Below, one piece after another: positions 54,745 to 62,954 of a DNA stretch of 64,000 nt; within the stretch, counting starts at the first letter, position 1; each line of letters begins with the position of its first letter. The stretch spans positions 1,302,001 through 1,366,000 of the forward strand of contig NZ_QXJC01000001.1 in the NCBI RefSeq assembly GCF_003570885.1, written 5' to 3'. The stretch is from Simplicispira hankyongi (lineage in GTDB: Bacteria > Pseudomonadota > Gammaproteobacteria > Burkholderiales > Burkholderiaceae_C). Both the position numbers and the translations under genes were made by a program. The notes beneath the pieces were generated by a model that was not told the DNA's origin, did no database searches, and worked only from the letters and a program-made list of their open reading frames with translations.

Positions 54745-55173
54745 TCACGCCTGCCAGCCGAGTGATCTGGGTCGCGGGGGCTGCACTGGCGGCACCAGCA
54801 GCAAGCTGCCCGCCAAGCCCAGTGCATCGGCCAGCCAATCGCCCAGCGATGCACTGCGGCCTGGTATGGCCGATTGCAGTACCTCGGTGAGTGCGCCCAG
54901 CAGCAGCAGGGCCGCCACCGCCCACCAGCGCTGGCGGCCCTGCTGCCAACTGCGCGCGGCCAATCCCCCCAGCACGGCAAACAGGCTGGCGTGCACCAGC
55001 TTGTCGGAATACGCCGTGGCGTCGGCCGCGTCAAGCACCGTCGCCATGGGCAACCACGACGCCGCCCACACCTTGGCAGCCAGCACGGCATTGGCCGGGG
55101 CCAGCAGGCAGACCAGGGTCACCAGCAGCGCCATGGTGAAAAGCACGCGTGCAATCAGCAGCGCCCGCCTCAT
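54745..55173 (-). CDS. VanZ-like membrane protein
   Basis: A 142-residue membrane protein with four helices and the VanZ pattern SDKLVHASLFAVLGGLAARS and LTEVLQSAIPGRSASLGDWL. VanZ-like proteins are frequent in polysaccharide loci, but their role is unclear. Its start overlaps the aminotransferase stop (ATGA), so the two are coupled. Confidence 0.85.
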   Translation of the reverse strand: MRRALLIARVLFTMALLVTLVCLLAPANAVLAAKVWAASWLPMATVLDAADATAYSDKLVHASLFAVLGGLAARSWQQGRQRWWAVAALLLLGALTEVLQSAIPGRSASLGDWLADALGLAGSLLLVPPVQPPRPRSLGWQA

Positions 55174-56372
55174 CCCCCAGCACCCCCGGCCACGCCCAGC
55201 ACCTGGCGAACCACCGCGCAGGTGCGATCCACTTCTGCCGCCGTCAGCGTCGGGTGCACCAGGAACATCAGGCTCGTTTCGCCCAGGGCGCGCGCCACGG
55301 GCAAGCGCTCGGCCGGGCGCCAGGGCGTGCCGTCAAAGGCCTTTTCCAGGTACACCTCGGAGCACGAGCCCTGGTAGCAGGGCACGCCCAGGGCGTTGAT
55401 GGCGTCCACGATGCGGTCGCGGCTCCAGCCGGGCGCCAGCGCCTCGGGCCGCACATAGGCGTAGCACTTGTACTGCGCATGCACACTGCCCGGCGCATGG
55501 GCCGTGGCTGCGGCAAAGTCGGGCACCCGCACGCAGTCGAAACCCCGGCAGGCGGCCCAAATGGCCTCGGCATGCGCCGCGCGCCGGGCCGTCCAATCCG
55601 CCATGCGGCGCAACTGAATGCGGCCCACGGCGGCCTGCACCTCAAGCATGCGCCAGTTGGTGCCAAAGCCCTCGATCACCCACCTGAAGCCCGGCGGGTG
55701 CTCGCGCTCGTACACCGCCGCGTAGCTCTTGCCGTGGTCCTTGTAGGCCCACATGGCGCGCCACAGCGCTTCGTCGTTCGTGGTGACCATGCCGCCCTCG
55801 CCCGCCGTGGTCATGATCTTGTCCTGGCAGAAGCTCCAGGCGCCCACGTGGCCGATGCTGCCCACGCTGCGGCCCCGGTAGCGCGCGCCATGCGCCTGCG
55901 CGCAGTCTTCCACCACCTTGAAGCCATGCTGCGCCGCCAGCGCCATGATCGGGTCCATATCGCAGGGCCAGCCCGCCAAGTGCACCACGATAACAGCCCT
56001 GGTTCGCGGCGTGAGCACGGCGGCAATGGTGGTCGCCGTGAGGTTGCCGCTATCAGGGTCGACATCGGCAAACACCGGTGTGGCACCCGCATTGACGACA
56101 CACGACACGCTGGCCATGAAGGTGCGCGGCGTGACCACCACCTCGTCGCCTGGGCCAATGCCCAGCGCCTTGAGCGCCACATCCAGCGCCAGCGTGCCAT
56201 TGGCGAGCGCCACGGCATGCTGCACGCCGGCCCAGGCGGCGAATTCGCGCTCGAAATCACGACATTCGGTGCCCGTCCAGTAGTTGACCTTGTTGGACAG
56301 CAGCACCGCGCGCACGGCGTCGGCTTCTTCGGAGGTAAAGCTGGGCCAGGGAGAAAACGGGGTATTCAGCAT
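55170..56372 (-). CDS. DegT/DnrJ/EryC1/StrS-family sugar aminotransferase
   Basis: A 400-residue PLP enzyme that aminates a 4-keto sugar (PglE-like role). Motifs: EFAAWAGVQHAVALANGTLA, DEVVVTPRTFMASVSCVVNA, KVVEDCAQAHGARYRGRSVG, and AWSFCQDKIMTTAGEGGMVT with the PLP lysine in DKI. I chose the ATG giving MLNTPFSPWPSFTSEEADAV; a longer frame to 56414 is unlikely. It lies between the DUF4143 ATPase and the VanZ-like gene; substrate identity (UDP-4-keto-HexNAc) follows from its neighbours. Confidence 0.92.
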   Translation of the reverse strand: MLNTPFSPWPSFTSEEADAVRAVLLSNKVNYWTGTECRDFEREFAAWAGVQHAVALANGTLALDVALKALGIGPGDEVVVTPRTFMASVSCVVNAGATPVFADVDPDSGNLTATTIAAVLTPRTRAVIVVHLAGWPCDMDPIMALAAQHGFKVVEDCAQAHGARYRGRSVGSIGHVGAWSFCQDKIMTTAGEGGMVTTNDEALWRAMWAYKDHGKSYAAVYEREHPPGFRWVIEGFGTNWRMLEVQAAVGRIQLRRMADWTARRAAHAEAIWAACRGFDCVRVPDFAAATAHAPGSVHAQYKCYAYVRPEALAPGWSRDRIVDAINALGVPCYQGSCSEVYLEKAFDGTPWRPAERLPVARALGETSLMFLVHPTLTAAEVDRTCAVVRQVLGVAGGAGG

Positions 56373-56417
56373 TTTCTTTGTGAAAGTGGTGGCAACAGGC
56401 AAGCGGCAGGGCAACTT

Positions 56418-57755
56418 TCAAGACGTGCCATCCATGGGCTGCAGCAGCCAATGGATGGCACGGTGCAGCTCGATAGGCGCAGGCACGGCAAGGGCGGGCG
56501 GAGCCGACAGGTACACCAGCATCATGCGGGCGCGCGGCCAGTCTAGCCGGGCATCTTGCAGGGCGCGCACCTCGCGCTGCAGCGTGGCGGCGTCGCTCAC
56601 ATCAAGGCAGACCTGCACCAGCCATTGCTCGCCACCCGGAAGGGCGGCATGGAAATCGACCTCATATCCCGAAGACGTGAGCACATAGCCTACTGCAGCG
56701 CCGCGCCGCTGCAGCTCGTGCAGGACGACAGTCTCAAGCGCATGGCCCAGATTGGGTTTGCCCGATGGGTCGAACACCGCCATCAAGCCAGTGTCCACGG
56801 GATAGACCTTGCGCGGATTGACCTGGCGGCGGCGCACAGAGTCGGTGGCCAGGGCAATGCTGCTCAGCAGGAAGGCATCTTCCAGATGCGCCAGCATCTG
56901 GTGCAGGCTGTCCTTGCCAACGGGCACACCGCGCGAGCGCAAATCGGCGTGGAACTTGTTGATGCTGAACGCCCCCGCCGTATTGCCCAGCAACTGCTGC
57001 ACCAGCCAGCGCAGCACCTGGGGCTGGCTCAGGTTGTGGCGCTCGATCACGTCGCGCAGCAGCACCACGTCCACATAGCCGCGCAGCAGTTCCCGGCGGC
57101 TGCGGGCGTCCATGGCGACGCCTTGCGCTTCAGGGAAACCGCCATCGCGCAGATAGGCAAGCAACAAGTGCTCCAACTGCGATTGGCCTGCCTTACCCAG
57201 GTTCGGTGCCGGCTTGTCTGGCTCCTGCCCGGCGTGGCGCAGCGCCTCGCGAAAGCTGAAGGGCGTCACCACCGCCTCCATGGCACGACCGCGCATGCTC
57301 GTGGCCACCTCGCGCGAAAGCAGCTTGGCCGACGAACCGGACAGAAACAATTCGATGTTCTCGCTGTCAAGCAAGCGGCGGGCAAACACCTCCCACCCGC
57401 TTACCACCTGAATTTCATCCAGAAAAAACGTGCAACGCCGTTGGTCACGCCATTGCGGGTGCAAGCGAAAATACTCGTCCACCAGCACATCCAGATCCGC
57501 TGCCTGGAGCCCCGCCAGGCGCTCGTCTTCAAAGCTGAAGTACAGCAAGCCCTCGCGCGGGACGCCCAGGGCGTGGCGCTCCGCCAGCAATTGCCACAAA
57601 AAACTGGTCTTGCCCGCGCGGCGCATGCCAATCACCGCCAATGCCTTGCCGGCGACTGCCGGAAGCCACACATCGCGCCGCGTCAGCGATGGCAGGGGGG
57701 CGGCCTGCGCATCGAGTATTTTTTGCCGGATGATGGGGCGAAATTGGCTCTGCAT
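56418..57755 (-). CDS. AAA/DUF4143-family ATP-binding protein
   Basis: A 445-residue protein with an N-terminal AAA_14 ATPase (Walker A VIGMRRAGKTSFLWQLLAE, Walker B RCTFFLDEIQVVSGWE, FLSGSSAKLLSREVATSMRG) and a C-terminal DUF4143 domain (about 270-420, with VYPVDTGLMAVF and VLTSSGYEVDF). Such proteins are widespread, mobile and of unknown function; the C-terminal part resembles a nuclease-like fold. It has no obvious role in glycan synthesis and separates the aminotransferase from the acetyltransferase, so it looks like an insertion. A 27-base inverted repeat (57774-57800) lies 18 bases before its ATG. Confidence 0.9.
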   Translation of the reverse strand: MQSQFRPIIRQKILDAQAAPLPSLTRRDVWLPAVAGKALAVIGMRRAGKTSFLWQLLAERHALGVPREGLLYFSFEDERLAGLQAADLDVLVDEYFRLHPQWRDQRRCTFFLDEIQVVSGWEVFARRLLDSENIELFLSGSSAKLLSREVATSMRGRAMEAVVTPFSFREALRHAGQEPDKPAPNLGKAGQSQLEHLLLAYLRDGGFPEAQGVAMDARSRRELLRGYVDVVLLRDVIERHNLSQPQVLRWLVQQLLGNTAGAFSINKFHADLRSRGVPVGKDSLHQMLAHLEDAFLLSSIALATDSVRRRQVNPRKVYPVDTGLMAVFDPSGKPNLGHALETVVLHELQRRGAAVGYVLTSSGYEVDFHAALPGGEQWLVQVCLDVSDAATLQREVRALQDARLDWPRARMMLVYLSAPPALAVPAPIELHRAIHWLLQPMDGTS

Positions 57756-57773: not shown

Positions 57774-57800
57774 AAATTATCCTTCTCAAAAGGATAATTT
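57774..57800 (-). promoter_or_regulatory. Inverted repeat upstream of the DUF4143 ATPase gene
   Basis: AAATTATCCTT (57774-57784) and AAGGATAATTT (57790-57800) are perfect arms with a five-base spacer. The right position, 18 bases before the ATG, and the AT-rich sequence suggest an operator or an RNA hairpin that controls translation. Similar ttatcc..ggataa elements precede other genes of this family in my experience. Confidence 0.65.
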
Positions 57801-57859: not shown

Positions 57860-58519
57860 TCATTTCACGAGCATCCGCGCCGGGTTGCCCACCACGGTAA
57901 CCCCAGCCGGCACGCTTTTGGTCACCACGGCGCCCATGCCCACCACGGCGCCCCGGCCGATCACCAGCGGCTTGCCTGGCTGGCCCTGCTTCAAAATGGC
58001 GCCCGTGCCAATGTAGGCATGGTCTTCAATGACGACATTGCCGTTGCAATGCACGCGCGGCGCAAAGGTGACGAAGTCGCCCAGCACGCAGTCGTGCTCG
58101 ACGTAGCTGTAAAGATTGGCGTGAAAGTGCCGGCCAATGCGGATGTTGCTGGTGAGCGTGACAAAGGGGCTGAGCACAGCGCCCACGCCCAACTGCACAT
58201 CGTCCATTTGCACGACGTTGGCTGCAGTTACAGCCCAGGGCTGCACGCCATCGGCTGCGCAGCGCTGGGCCAGCGCCTCGCGCACCGCGCTTTTAGCAAT
58301 GGCCAGCACGGCGTAGCGCGCGGCGGCGGGTTCGCCCAGAAACTGCGCATAGGTCATGAGGCGCTGGCCATTGACCTTGGCCGGCCCCGGCGCGTCATCC
58401 ACAAACACCAGGCGGCTGGCGGGCACACCAGCCAGCACGAGTTGCTGGCGCGCCAGCGGCATGATGCCGCGACCGCAACCACTGGCGCCATAGACGGCGT
58501 ACAAGTCCTGCTGCTGCAT
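57860..58519 (-). CDS. Sugar O/N-acetyltransferase, PglD/NeuD type
   Basis: A 219-residue protein. The N-terminal nucleotide-sugar-binding part begins MQQQDLYAVYGASGCGRGIM (G-A-S-G-x-G), and the C-terminal left-handed beta-helix (about 85-215) carries hexapeptide repeats such as VLSPFVTLTSNIRIGRHF and IGTGAILKQGQPGKPLVIGRGAVVG-type turns, with the active-site His in HANLYSYVEHDC. In the PglD role it acetylates the 4-amino group of the UDP-sugar. It lies downstream of the ATP-grasp gene and upstream of the DUF4143 ATPase gene. Confidence 0.88.
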   Translation of the reverse strand: MQQQDLYAVYGASGCGRGIMPLARQQLVLAGVPASRLVFVDDAPGPAKVNGQRLMTYAQFLGEPAAARYAVLAIAKSAVREALAQRCAADGVQPWAVTAANVVQMDDVQLGVGAVLSPFVTLTSNIRIGRHFHANLYSYVEHDCVLGDFVTFAPRVHCNGNVVIEDHAYIGTGAILKQGQPGKPLVIGRGAVVGMGAVVTKSVPAGVTVVGNPARMLVK

Positions 58520-58545
58520 GGTGCGGGTTCCTTCTTTGCTGGTGA

Positions 58546-58612
58546 CTTCAGTATTGATAGCTGCCTTCGCTTACTGCATAAGCGCTGGAGGCCTATTTTG
58601 CTTGATATTTTG
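58546..58612. repeat. Palindromic repeat copy, upstream of the acetyltransferase
   Basis: Reads tattgatagctgccttcgct, tactgcataagcgctggagg and cctattttgcttgatatttt: all family blocks are present. It is one of the two best intergenic copies and can serve as a reference. Confidence 0.8.
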
Positions 58613-58672
58613 AGTTGCCATGCCTGCCCTTTCGACCTCCCGGCGTCGGCGAGGCAAGGCACGCTTACCCAC

Positions 58673-58768
58673 CTACGGCTTGCTCCCCGTGAACCGCGGC
58701 ATCGTCGCCTCGCCGGCCGCGCTGATGCCATCGCGCGCCACCACCTTGCGCACAGTGGGCCATGGTCC
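58673..58768 (-). pseudogene. Orphan 3' end of a sugar transferase gene
   Basis: About 95 bases that encode LTVRK-like TVRKVVARDGISAAGEATMP, RFTGSKP and a stop, matching the last 30 codons of the intact PglC-type gene (60048-60140) with only a few substitutions. The rest of the gene is absent: the sequence 5' of it is unrelated and leads into the ATP-grasp gene's 3' side. It is a duplication remnant. Confidence 0.85.
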
Positions 58769-58830
58769 ACACACCCACGGGCTGCCACAGCTTCGCAGAA
58801 GTCATGCAGAGGGGCCCATACTTTCAACAT

Positions 58831-59808
58831 TTATTTACGGTCGTAGAAAGCAATTGGCGCAGTGAATTCAAAATATTTCGACACCAGCATGCCACTTTTA
58901 TATTTGGTAAACAACGGCTGCACAGGAATACCGCCAGTAAGCTCCGCGAAAAGATGCTTTAGCAAGTTGCACCCAAAGACATGGCTGGCTGGATAATTTC
59001 CACCAATTCTGCAATTGACATCCATCAGTTTAAAAATTCCGTCTTCTTCATAGACATCAAAATTCACGATACCTCGGAGATTAAGCCACGGCGATAGGGA
59101 TTCGACAAAATCTACAAACCTTGTTGAATCTTCCGATTGCAAAACAAATGATTCGCCCTTGCTTTTGCCAAGCACCCTCTTTACACACAGATCAATTAGA
59201 CGCGAATCATAAATTGAAAAATATGCATCTATGCAATAGTGAACGCCAAAACAGAACGGCTGGTAGACAAAATCTCCATCCATATTTCCAGCATTCCGTA
59301 ATTCTTCTGGATTCTGATAAATCTGAAAGCCACTGGCTGCCGAGCCTCGACGATCCTTTCGTATGCATGGAAAAGTATCCAACGGCAGCAATCGCGTCTC
59401 TACAATATTGACATTGTTTTCTTGCGCTGCGATCGACAGAAAATATTTGTCTTCACAAATCAAGGCCGTTTCAATCCCTGGGTGTAGAAAGCAAATCGAC
59501 GAAGGCAGTTGAAGCCTGGCAAGCGGCGCAATCTCGACGTCAATTAGCGTAAGAAACGCAGTAACGTTATTTGCATTAACTAATTTCAAATAATCGTCTG
59601 AAAAATTCTGCTGGGTTGCCGCCGGAATAATGGAAAAATTCTCAAACTCCACTCTTGCCGGGCAATAATCAGACGCGTCCGCACCAACCATGTCAAATCG
59701 ATGATTTTCTGCCTCTCCTTTAATAATTCGTATCAAAGCATTGCGTTTTCCAACTCCAGAAACCAGCAAGACATTTTGGCCCGAATTTTTTTCCTGGTGG
59801 CAGGTCAT
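58831..59808 (-). CDS. ATP-grasp domain protein (predicted carboxylate-amine ligase)
   Basis: A 325-residue ATP-grasp enzyme. After a Rossmann-like N-domain (NVLLVSGVGKRNALIRIIKG) come the ATP-binding segments GDFVYQPFCFGVHYCIDAYF and the metal-binding end NFDVYEEDGIFKLMDVNCRI with GGNYPASHVFG. Relatives in polysaccharide loci are thought to form amide bonds, for example by adding amino acids to sugars; the substrate here is unknown. Its DNA is distinctly AT-rich compared with its neighbours. The ATG at 59808 overlaps the stop (ATGA) of a truncated acetyltransferase start. A longer frame to 60363 is antisense to the sugar transferase and not used. Confidence 0.85.
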   Translation of the reverse strand: MTCHQEKNSGQNVLLVSGVGKRNALIRIIKGEAENHRFDMVGADASDYCPARVEFENFSIIPAATQQNFSDDYLKLVNANNVTAFLTLIDVEIAPLARLQLPSSICFLHPGIETALICEDKYFLSIAAQENNVNIVETRLLPLDTFPCIRKDRRGSAASGFQIYQNPEELRNAGNMDGDFVYQPFCFGVHYCIDAYFSIYDSRLIDLCVKRVLGKSKGESFVLQSEDSTRFVDFVESLSPWLNLRGIVNFDVYEEDGIFKLMDVNCRIGGNYPASHVFGCNLLKHLFAELTGGIPVQPLFTKYKSGMLVSKYFEFTAPIAFYDRK

Positions 59809-59897
59809 GACGCGCTGAATATTGAATCGGCAGGCGGGCACGCTGGCCCGCACAAGCCGCTGGCGCCAAAGACGGCATACAAGTTTCGCTTTTGCAT
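59805..59897 (-). pseudogene. Truncated second copy of the acetyltransferase start
   Basis: The ATG at 59897 opens a 30-codon frame, MQKRNLYAVFGASGLCGPAC and on to a TGA that overlaps the ATP-grasp ATG. MQxxxLYAVxGASG matches the start of the intact acetyltransferase (58519). After GASG about 37 bases are missing compared with the intact gene, and the match resumes in another frame (gtgcccgcc) before it ends. It may now act as a leader peptide coupling translation to the ATP-grasp gene. Confidence 0.82.
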
Positions 59898-59925
59898 AGA
59901 GGTTGGTACGGGTCGATTTATTTTT

Positions 59926-59990
59926 ATTGATAGCTGCTTGCGCTTGCTGCATAAGCGCTAGCAGCATATTTTGGTTAACATTTTTTGACG
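59926..59990. repeat. Palindromic repeat copy between pglC-type gene and ATP-grasp gene
   Basis: Reads ttattgatagctgcttgcgc, ttgctgcataagcgctagca and gcatattttggttaacattt. The arms GCGCTT/AAGCGC and the flanking gctg/cagc are intact. It sits at the same relative place as the copy at 58546. Confidence 0.8.
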
Positions 59991-60047
59991 ATACCGCTCG
60001 CCGGGCCCTGCGAGCGAGCCTCCCGGCACACGGCACGGTGCGCGGAA

Positions 60048-60641
60048 CTACAGCTTGCTCCCTGTAAAGCGCGGCATGGTCGCCTCGCCCGCAGCGCTGA
60101 TGCCATCGCGCACCAGCACCTTGCGCACGGTGAGCCACAGAATTTTGATGTCGAGCCACAGCGAGCGATGGTCCACGTACCACACGTCTAGCGCAAATTT
60201 CTCTTCCCAACCCAGCGCATTGCGCCCGTTGACCTGTGCCCAGCCGGTAATGCCGGGGCGCACTTCGTGCCGGCGCGCTTGCTCCGGCGAATACAGCGGC
60301 AAATACTCCACCAGCAGCGGGCGCGGGCCGACCAGGCTCATGTCGCCCTTGAGCACGTTCCACAGCTCGGGCAGTTCATCCAAGCTGCTGGCGCGCAGAA
60401 AGCGGCCAAAAGGCGTCAGCCGGTCGGCATCGGGCAGCAAGGCGCCATCGGGGCCGCGTGCGTCCGTCATGGTGCGCAGCTTGAGCATCTCGAACGGCTG
60501 GCCGTGCAGGCCTGGGCGCACTTGGCGGAAGAACGCGGGGTGGCCAAGCTTGCGGCGCACCAGCAAAACCAAGGCCAGCAGCGGCAGGGCCAGCAGCAGC
60601 AGGGCGATCGCAGAGGTGGTGATGTCGAAAAGGCGCTTCAT
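60048..60641 (-). CDS. Initiating sugar-phosphate transferase, PglC/WcaJ type
   Basis: A 197-residue monotopic phosphoglycosyl transferase that moves a sugar-1-phosphate from its UDP form to undecaprenyl phosphate at the inner face of the membrane. It has the reentrant N-terminal helix KRLFDITTSAIALLLLALPL, the catalytic DE pair in FLRASSLDELPELWNVLKGD, SLVGPRPLLVEYLPLY and RPGITGWAQVNGRNALGWEE. The size (about 200) is that of the minimal PglC form. Its 3' end is duplicated at 58673. Confidence 0.93.
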   Translation of the reverse strand: MKRLFDITTSAIALLLLALPLLALVLLVRRKLGHPAFFRQVRPGLHGQPFEMLKLRTMTDARGPDGALLPDADRLTPFGRFLRASSLDELPELWNVLKGDMSLVGPRPLLVEYLPLYSPEQARRHEVRPGITGWAQVNGRNALGWEEKFALDVWYVDHRSLWLDIKILWLTVRKVLVRDGISAAGEATMPRFTGSKL

Positions 60642-60647
60642 GGCACA

Positions 60648-60712
60648 TTAAAAATAATAGCTTGCCGCGCATATACAGCAAGCGCTAGAGGCCGAAAACA
60701 CCCTGAATATTC
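60648..60712. repeat. Palindromic repeat copy upstream of the PglC-type gene
   Basis: Reads taaaaataatagcttgccgc, gcatatacagcaagcgctag and aggccgaaaacaccctgaat: one arm (aagcgctagaggcc) is perfect and the other decayed. It lies between the GT4 gene's stop and the transferase start. Confidence 0.65.
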
Positions 60713-61919: not shown

Positions 61920-62954
61920 TCAATCAAAATAGTTATCGGAAACAGCATTCATGCCATTATCAACAATGCGGCTCTCATTGAATATGCCCTTATGAAAAAC
62001 CCTGTTCCCCCTTACCAACCCAGCCCGTGTTTTATCGTCCATGAATATCGCATTCCCTCTGTTGCCCCTCAGGGTATTGCCAATGATCCTGAAAAGCGAT
62101 GTATTGAATATTGAGATACCAGAATTATTGTTCTCAGCAACCATATTTCCATTCACCTCAATATCGAAAATAGAAACCTGCGCTGGGCCGAACGCAGCAT
62201 ACGAGGCAATTCCAGCACCGCTATTGTTCCAAAATTTTGAATTTACGATCTTCACACCCCGGACCATTTCTTTCGCATCGGGCTCGATATCAATTCCCGC
62301 TTGCGGCGCCGTTCCCTTGGTGTTTATAAACGAGGAACCCGTTACAAGAATATTTTCACCAGAAATAATGGACATCCCCTGCCGCCGATTGCCATCCGCA
62401 ACAACCGAGCAGAAGCTAACATCCTTGCTATTTCCGCCGATGTAAAACCCATCTCCCCAATTGTCCTTGGACACTACATTTTTAATAATGATATTGGTTG
62501 CCGCAGCAAGCGACACCCCCATGCCCCATTCACCTTTTGTGCCCTGGTGCTGATACCGTTCACCGAGCAGAACGCCTCCGATAATCGCCACATTTGAAGC
62601 ATTCTCTATCCGCAAAATACTGTAGTTGGTGCTTCCGTTTGGAGCAGCCTTGATGACAGCATTCTCAGACAACTTCAATACCACATCGCTTTTCAACCGG
62701 ACGCCTTTCACGGCATCCACCAGGTAAACACCATCAGGGACGACAACCACACCACCGGCAACCGAAGCCTGGTCGATAGCACCCTGCAAGGCCTTGGTGT
62801 CATCGGTTATGCCATCGCCGGCAGCCCCTTGAGCCCGTGCATCGATCATTGGCTTTGCTGCCATTTTTACCGTACAGGAGTCCTGTCCGCCGGCATTTGC
62901 CAGCAATGCGATGCTCCAGAGCGGGACTATTAAAAGAGTGTGCAGAATTTTCAT
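61920..62954 (-). CDS. Secreted right-handed beta-helix protein (pectate-lyase-like)
   Basis: A 344-residue exported protein. A signal peptide (MKILHTLLIVPLWSIALLANA) is followed by the pectate_lyase_3 start IDARAQGAAGDGITDDTKAL and then parallel beta-helix coils of about 22-25 residues (NASNVAIIGGVLL, NIIIKNVVSKDNWGDGFYIG, NILVTGSSFINT, VRGVKIVNSKFWNNSGAGIA). Such proteins bind or cleave polysaccharides, often the glycan of their own locus, though structural roles exist. The DNA is AT-rich compared with the neighbours. It precedes the GT4 gene by about 85 bases. Confidence 0.88.
   Translation of the reverse strand: MKILHTLLIVPLWSIALLANAGGQDSCTVKMAAKPMIDARAQGAAGDGITDDTKALQGAIDQASVAGGVVVVPDGVYLVDAVKGVRLKSDVVLKLSENAVIKAAPNGSTNYSILRIENASNVAIIGGVLLGERYQHQGTKGEWGMGVSLAAATNIIIKNVVSKDNWGDGFYIGGNSKDVSFCSVVADGNRRQGMSIISGENILVTGSSFINTKGTAPQAGIDIEPDAKEMVRGVKIVNSKFWNNSGAGIASYAAFGPAQVSIFDIEVNGNMVAENNNSGISIFNTSLFRIIGNTLRGNRGNAIFMDDKTRAGLVRGNRVFHKGIFNESRIVDNGMNAVSDNYFD

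Follow-up and report, generated by a model that had tools for sequence, protein, structure and literature searches.

Polysaccharide operons often swap genes, but the scar that any one such event leaves can rarely be read. The locus described here raises the question of how one cargo gene, encoding an ATP-grasp protein, came to lie between two diverged copies of the same gene junction in such an operon of Simplicispira hankyongi. The window, that is, the whole stretch of 64,000 nucleotides that we analysed, keeps the resident junction, a diverged and apparently incoming junction and the cargo together, and in two relatives the site is empty.

Layout of the operon and its repeated junction

Open reading frames and matches to Pfam and NCBIfam delineate in the window a pglC-pglD-pglE-pglF-like block for an amino sugar, encoded on the minus strand, in which pglC is followed by a spacer, a broken pglD start, the ATP-grasp gene, a broken pglC end, a second spacer and pglD. 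The names pglC and pglD are used at the family level only, after Pfam Bac_transf and the NeuD/PglB/VioB family (NeuD_NnaD, 157.7 bits, just below the cut-off of 160.8), respectively. The complete pglC-like gene (60048..60641, minus strand) encodes a bacterial sugar transferase of 197 amino acids (ORF; Pfam: PF02397, E 3.5e-63) and has its nearest relative at the DNA level in genome G025 (85.5%); its 3′ end forms the left portion of the upstream copy of the junction. It is followed by the upstream, outsider spacer (59898..60047, minus strand), with one palindromic repeat at 59925-59984 (nhmmer), by a pglD 5′ remnant defined by ungapped blocks (59802..59897, minus strand; alignment score of 44.5 against a shuffle maximum of 15.3), and by the GC-poor gene of the ATP-grasp protein (58831..59808, minus strand), which is carbamoyl-phosphate-synthase-like and 325 amino acids long (Pfam: PylC-like_N, ATP-grasp_3). 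Between the stop codon of this gene and the pglC remnant lie 55 nt (58776..58830) that align to pglC no better than shuffles do, and for which we identified no source. The downstream copy then consists of a pglC 3′ remnant of 90 nt including the stop codon (58673..58762, minus strand), which is 88% identical to 60048-60137 and 85.6% identical to pglC of G025, the resident spacer (58520..58672, minus strand), with the repeat at 58552-58611, and the complete pglD-like acetyltransferase gene (57860..58519, minus strand; 219 amino acids, Hexapep), whose product shares 91% of its amino acids with that of G025. A second cargo gene, for an AAA_14/DUF4143 ATPase (56418..57755, minus strand; Pfam), lies between pglD and the pglE-like aminotransferase gene (55170..56414, minus strand; Pfam DegT_DnrJ_EryC1, E 1.9e-93), with which the stretch compared across genomes ends.

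Several further features were noted in and around the block. A near-perfect palindrome at 57774-57800, 5′ of the ATPase gene, could be an operator, and a 77% identical relative of that gene occurs in one of the ten other genomes searched, that of Serpentinimonas G203, where it and the pgl locus are on different contigs. A second GC-poor gene of the window (61920-62954, GC3 0.52), placed between an asparagine-synthase-like gene and a glycosyltransferase, encodes a right-handed β-helix protein. No RNA family reached its gathering score within 58300-60700, and a promoter and terminator scan returned sites no more numerous than in shuffled sequences.

That the order of pglC end, repeat-bearing spacer and acetyltransferase start occurs twice, with the ATP-grasp gene in between, was proposed in a first-pass annotation and is borne out by alignment. 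The two copies (60137-59837 and 58762-58458, minus strand) are identical at 226 of 283 positions of a gapped local alignment (80%), whose score of 254 compares with 59 for the best of 200 dinucleotide shuffles. The annotation had tied its proposal to similarity beyond the repeat itself, and the pairwise alignment indeed reaches far past it, with ungapped blocks in the pglC tail (90 nt, 88%), the repeat-bearing spacer (60 nt, 83%) and the pglD start (41 nt, 80%), followed by two more pglD blocks in conserved order (39 nt, 79%; 24 nt, 83%). The upstream pglD remnant retains 96 nt of what are 169 in pglD, the 73 missing ones being spread over three gaps, and ends in ATGACCT (59802); its second part alone scores above 1000 of 1000 shuffles. 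For the pglC stub, a candidate continuation upstream of 58762 is at chance level, its score being reached by 265 of 1000 shuffles. The repeats at the ends of the insert are diverged gene pieces with internal losses, not exact direct repeats, and the ATP-grasp frame is the only one between the stubs, with no integrase or transposase; a site-specific integrating element, which we considered, was rejected for want of such a gene and of direct repeats exactly at the insert ends. At the right-hand joint, no matching short homology was identified.

The cargo gene stands apart in composition, with 42.8% GC and a GC3 of 0.41 against 0.80-0.85 in pglC, pglD, pglE and pglF (65% GC in pglC and pglD, with GC3 of 0.83 and 0.80). 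Its product matches the ATP-grasp fold by PF02655 (26.5 bits, cut-off 23.2) and PF21360 (41.9 bits, cut-off 27) and is also matched by PDB 2pn1 (E 2.1e-17). NCBIfam models of PRK12767 align to residues 13-314 with a best E of 8.7e-31, at 107.2 bits against a cut-off of 271, and every PRK12767 model stays below its own cut-off; the structure predicted from the single sequence (pLDDT 42.5) was too poor for a fold search. Judging by family and position, its probable role is to ligate the amino sugar of the operon with an acyl or amino-acid group. The first codons of its gene (ATGACC) fall within the pglD remnant, with the ATG in frame with the protein, and family profiles match only from residue 12-14 onward; the remnant thus probably supplies the start codon, a start that we infer, since other in-frame start codons are present further upstream. 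In its present state the remnant is a frame of 30 codons, the TGA of which shares bases with the following ATG (ATGA), an arrangement through which translational coupling of the two frames is possible.

Empty sites and the kinship of the two copies

When 26 genomes of the genus were searched with the DNA of the region, three matched at E<=1e-30, namely the source genome, G025 and G005. In the latter two, pglC adjoins pglD across a single junction, so that the empty site suggested by the first-pass annotation as something to look for in related strains does exist. Synteny with G025 continues through pglD, pglE and pglF in one direction and breaks off in the other where pglC starts, so that the adjacent glycosyltransferase block differs too. 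With one genome sampled per species, we found no donor carrying the upstream junction or this ATP-grasp gene: the protein has relatives in none of 398 other genomes of the family at E<=1e-25 and, at E<=1e-8, in a single genome among 349 others of the class, where the match is 22%, and back-translated patterns gave no match in genome contigs. Twelve plasmid records match the protein, at 22-24%.

In a three-way alignment of the upstream copy, the downstream copy and G025, comprising 239 columns without the pglC tail, the downstream copy groups most closely with G025 in all 2000 bootstraps, both with and without that tail. Over the 147 ungapped columns of the spacer, identity is 0.83 between downstream copy and G025, compared with 0.55 between upstream and downstream copies and 0.54 between upstream copy and G025; in the pglD start, the corresponding values are 0.935, 0.685 and 0.685. 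The 90 nt of the pglC tail do not resolve the kinship (upstream-downstream 0.88, upstream-G025 0.86, downstream-G025 0.86). The downstream junction is therefore the resident copy, and the upstream spacer and pglD stub are the outsiders. As the downstream copy is nearer to G025 than to its counterpart in the window in 2000 of 2000 replicates, duplication after the split from G025 is disfavoured, and a recent tandem duplication, which would have made the two window copies each other's closest relatives (0 of 2000 bootstraps), was rejected.

The working pglC does not share this outsider signal. Its dS to G025 (0.52) shows no excess over those of pglD (0.42), pglE (0.55) and pglF (0.56), and no mosaic break appears inside it along the identity profile to G025, so the case for a foreign origin comes from the 239 columns of spacer and pglD start. 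A pglC in line with its neighbours implies that the donor, if there was one, was a near relative, or else that the upstream copy is a drifted old duplicate; as a dead stub, this copy may simply have evolved faster.

Explanations for the inserted gene

The first-pass annotation had offered three elements of a history, namely acquisition by recombination at the junction, tandem duplication of it, and the palindromic repeat as shared homology. The first of these gives the better reading, the second, as a recent event, has 2000 of 2000 bootstraps against it, and the third falls away with the evidence on the repeat given below. The annotation had also claimed that the locus shows directly how an operon receives cargo, which is too strong: what can be seen is the end product, namely the two copies with their two stubs, that of pglD with internal deletions, alongside two relatives that have the empty site and a downstream copy that is akin to G025, and from it we infer the steps.

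The account that we think probable, with considerable room for others, is that DNA was imported from a related lineage within the family and that the redundant copies then eroded, which left the ATP-grasp gene between stubs. This DNA would have brought along a pglC, a spacer and a pglD. Its pglC would have become the working copy, the redundant incoming pglD would have eroded to the 5′ stub and the redundant resident pglC to the 3′ stub, and the resident spacer, pglD and everything downstream would have been retained, while the ATP-grasp gene would have come either as part of the imported segment or as a simultaneous addition. The joints and the donor are reconstructed: the left end would have been joined by homology in pglC and the right end without homology, in a homology-anchored illegitimate recombination.

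An old duplication within the lineage, before the split of the window from G025, is a rather unlikely alternative that nevertheless accounts for part of the data. The ATP-grasp gene would then have entered between the two copies, and G025 would later have lost one of them. A dS of 0.52 between the upstream pglC and G025, similar to the 0.42-0.56 of the neighbouring genes, is as expected for a gene that never left the lineage, and the faster drift of a non-functional copy could account for the spacer identity of 55%. Of the required loss in G025, however, no trace was seen there, G005 has a single junction as well, and two junctions with a pglD stub were seen in none of the other loci measured in the flank test of 21 inserts described below.

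We give somewhat less credence still to an end-to-end joining, in which the stretch ending in pglC, spacer and pglD of one strain was placed upstream of another strain's ATP-grasp gene, pglC, spacer and pglD, with subsequent erosion of the redundant pieces. Here, the ATP-grasp gene would be an ordinary upstream tailoring gene of the second cluster. A single joint with no insertion event would account for both stubs and for their order, and the upstream region of the cluster, which holds the GC-poor gene at 61920-62954, does vary between the window and G025; yet an ATP-grasp gene upstream of pglC was found in no relative (0 of 398 genomes at E<=1e-25; 1 of 349 at E<=1e-8, at 22%).

The palindromic repeat is dispersed. 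A search of the own genome with the DNA of the region gave 40 matches at the scoring limit of the search, of which one is the region itself and 39 are short ones on the two repeat copies. Among the junctions scanned, the repeat occurs between pglC and pglD only in the window (twice), in L013 (the locus of G025) and in L044, L077 and L079; being already at the junction in relatives, it is older than the event in the window. Repeat copies also lie in the first 210 bases of two contigs of the own genome, C7 and C16 (L003, L005), and the repeat may break the assembly. Insertion through the repeat, which would have acted as a mobile unit or recombined with another of its dispersed copies, could invoke its presence in both junction copies, its dispersal and the frequency of cargo at repeat-bearing pglC-pglD junctions (4 of 5, against 6 of 83 others; Fisher p 0.0004, for five loci that are close relatives and not independent), but we consider it very improbable and reject it, as the repeat is internal to the junction copies and does not border the cargo, the homology goes beyond it to span the pglC tail and pglD start, and 6 of the 10 cargo-bearing pglC-pglD junctions have no repeat. 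The special role that the annotation had tentatively assigned to it is likewise at odds with its dispersal, its presence in the junctions of relatives and the extent of the homology.

Cargo at the same gaps in other loci, and known systems

To place the import account in a wider setting, we compared loci gathered by similarity of pglD, not by gap length, of which the search contributed the best 80 of 124; 96 were distinct after de-duplication, and 8 of these without a placed pglC and 10 without a placed pglE are left out of the respective denominators. Without cargo, the median gap is 9 bp between pglC and pglD and 13 bp between pglD and pglE, while gaps of >300 bp, taken as cargo, were found in 10 of 88 and 11 of 86 loci, respectively. 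These 21 inserts belong to 16 loci, five of which, including the window, have both gaps filled. The pglE-pglF gap varies as well (26 of 69 exceed 300 bp and nine reach at least 1.9 kb, with some loci counted twice), so an excess of cargo around pglD over other gaps of the operon is not established.

Toxin-antitoxin systems or pieces of them make up 9 of the 21 inserts: 1) a MazEF pair in L013, in the pglD-pglE gap where the window has its ATPase gene, 2) a PaaA2-like antitoxin in L044, below the cut-off, and a relative of it with a weak ParE match in L079, 3) VapBC-type inserts in L044, L045, L077 and L088 (in L077 and L088 by DNA similarity), 4) YefM-YoeB in L077, and 5) ParE on the other strand in L152. 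Two inserts carry AAA_14/DUF4143 ATPases (the window and L117) and one an NYN protein (L048). Enzymes were found in 6 of the 21 inserts, namely the ATP-grasp protein of the window, GNAT/FemAB (L118), GNAT and 3-hydroxyacyl-CoA dehydrogenase (L146), MaoC (L116) and, from our reading of the sequence, a putative acyltransferase-like pair of frames (L128), and three inserts are without assignment (L118 and L131, which are homologous, and L125). PIN genes were seen four times at the two gaps of 86 loci (two by Pfam, two by DNA similarity to those) where 0.29 were expected, an expectation derived from 65 PIN matches in 11 genomes that are not a random draw, if each genome is taken to have 3500 genes and the loci to be independent, although L044 is closely related to L077. 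The same polysaccharide loci have additional PIN-domain genes within or next to them (G277:C1:3912639-3913004, G203:C68:7735-8121 and G280:C1:131666-132052). The PglC ending ATMGKFTGN is common to L044, L077, L079 and L088, all with a toxin-antitoxin insert after pglC, and absent from the other endings compared.

Scars comparable to that of the window are few. In the flank-duplication test (21 inserts, 42 comparisons), five comparisons exceeded all 100 shuffles, two of them in the window; stubs of flanking genes outside it are a pglC end in L079 (67 against 29) and a pglE start in L128 (42 against 31). L077, marginal at 31 against 28 and with its match inside both pglD and the insert, was not counted as a stub. 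L079, a parallel that speaks for the import account, has the order full pglC, toxin-antitoxin piece and pglC 3′ stub. The last ∼100 nt of its full pglC resemble L044 (0.88) more than the window (0.72), whereas earlier blocks are about equally distant or nearer to the window, and L079 and L044 have the same cassette (83% over 625 nt); a pglC end thus seems to have come in jointly with its cassette, while the old end stayed in place. Between L044 and L077, 807 nt ending in pglD are 97.6% identical and the last 294 nt of pglC 96.6%, and the cassettes in between differ, which implies that cassettes move between alleles while the flanks are kept. The VapBC of the first gap of L077 has 76% DNA identity to that of the second gap of L044, that is, in a different gap of a close relative.

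A tentative generalization, which we consider possible but would not yet favour, is that the gaps around pglD are recurrent, integrase-free cargo slots, where entry would be by recombination anchored in the strongly conserved 3′ end of pglC, which the incoming DNA restores while the displaced end stays behind as a stub, and that two kinds of cargo use them: addiction-type modules, which would lock the sugar allele, and acyl-changing enzymes. The former would comprise VapBC, MazEF, YefM-YoeB and ParE-type systems and probably the AAA_14/DUF4143 ATPases; the latter, namely ATP-grasp, GNAT/FemAB, 3-hydroxyacyl-CoA dehydrogenase and MaoC, would act on the acyl group of the amino sugar. If the pglC end serves as such an entry point in general, ordinary recombination brings both toxin-antitoxin pairs and sugar-tailoring enzymes to the same slots, and an adjacent addiction module could penalise the loss of a sugar allele and so lock an acquired one in place. 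Our literature search found no paper whose accessible text describes toxin-antitoxin or other cargo at the pglC-pglD-pglE gaps.

The process resembles known cases of homology-anchored gene capture. In the O-antigen clusters of Salmonella, which have remnant genes and mosaic junctions, recombination between related clusters, displaced wzy remnants and a partial wzy duplication recall the locus described here, but some of the junctions there carry IS or H-repeat remnants, of which none was recognised here (PMC3715488). Homology-facilitated illegitimate recombination, in which one end is joined by homology and the other without it, was measured in conjugation of E. coli (PMC3240628); the window would share this asymmetry, and its upstream copy shares homology with the resident pglC-pglD junction, as one end does with the recipient in such events, but what was there a laboratory measurement is here read from a natural scar, whose right-hand joint could be recovered only with the donor. 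In the type VI clusters of Vibrio cholerae, the displacement of effector genes by effector-immunity modules was explained by the same process (PMC5361080), with the module anchored by a conserved upstream stretch, its other end unanchored and the old 3′ sequence orphaned downstream, as would apply here; the leftovers there are intact immunity genes, in contrast to the eroded stubs in our polysaccharide operon. The scar in the window is probably a well-preserved example of this known kind of event, with a recurrent pattern of cargo around it.
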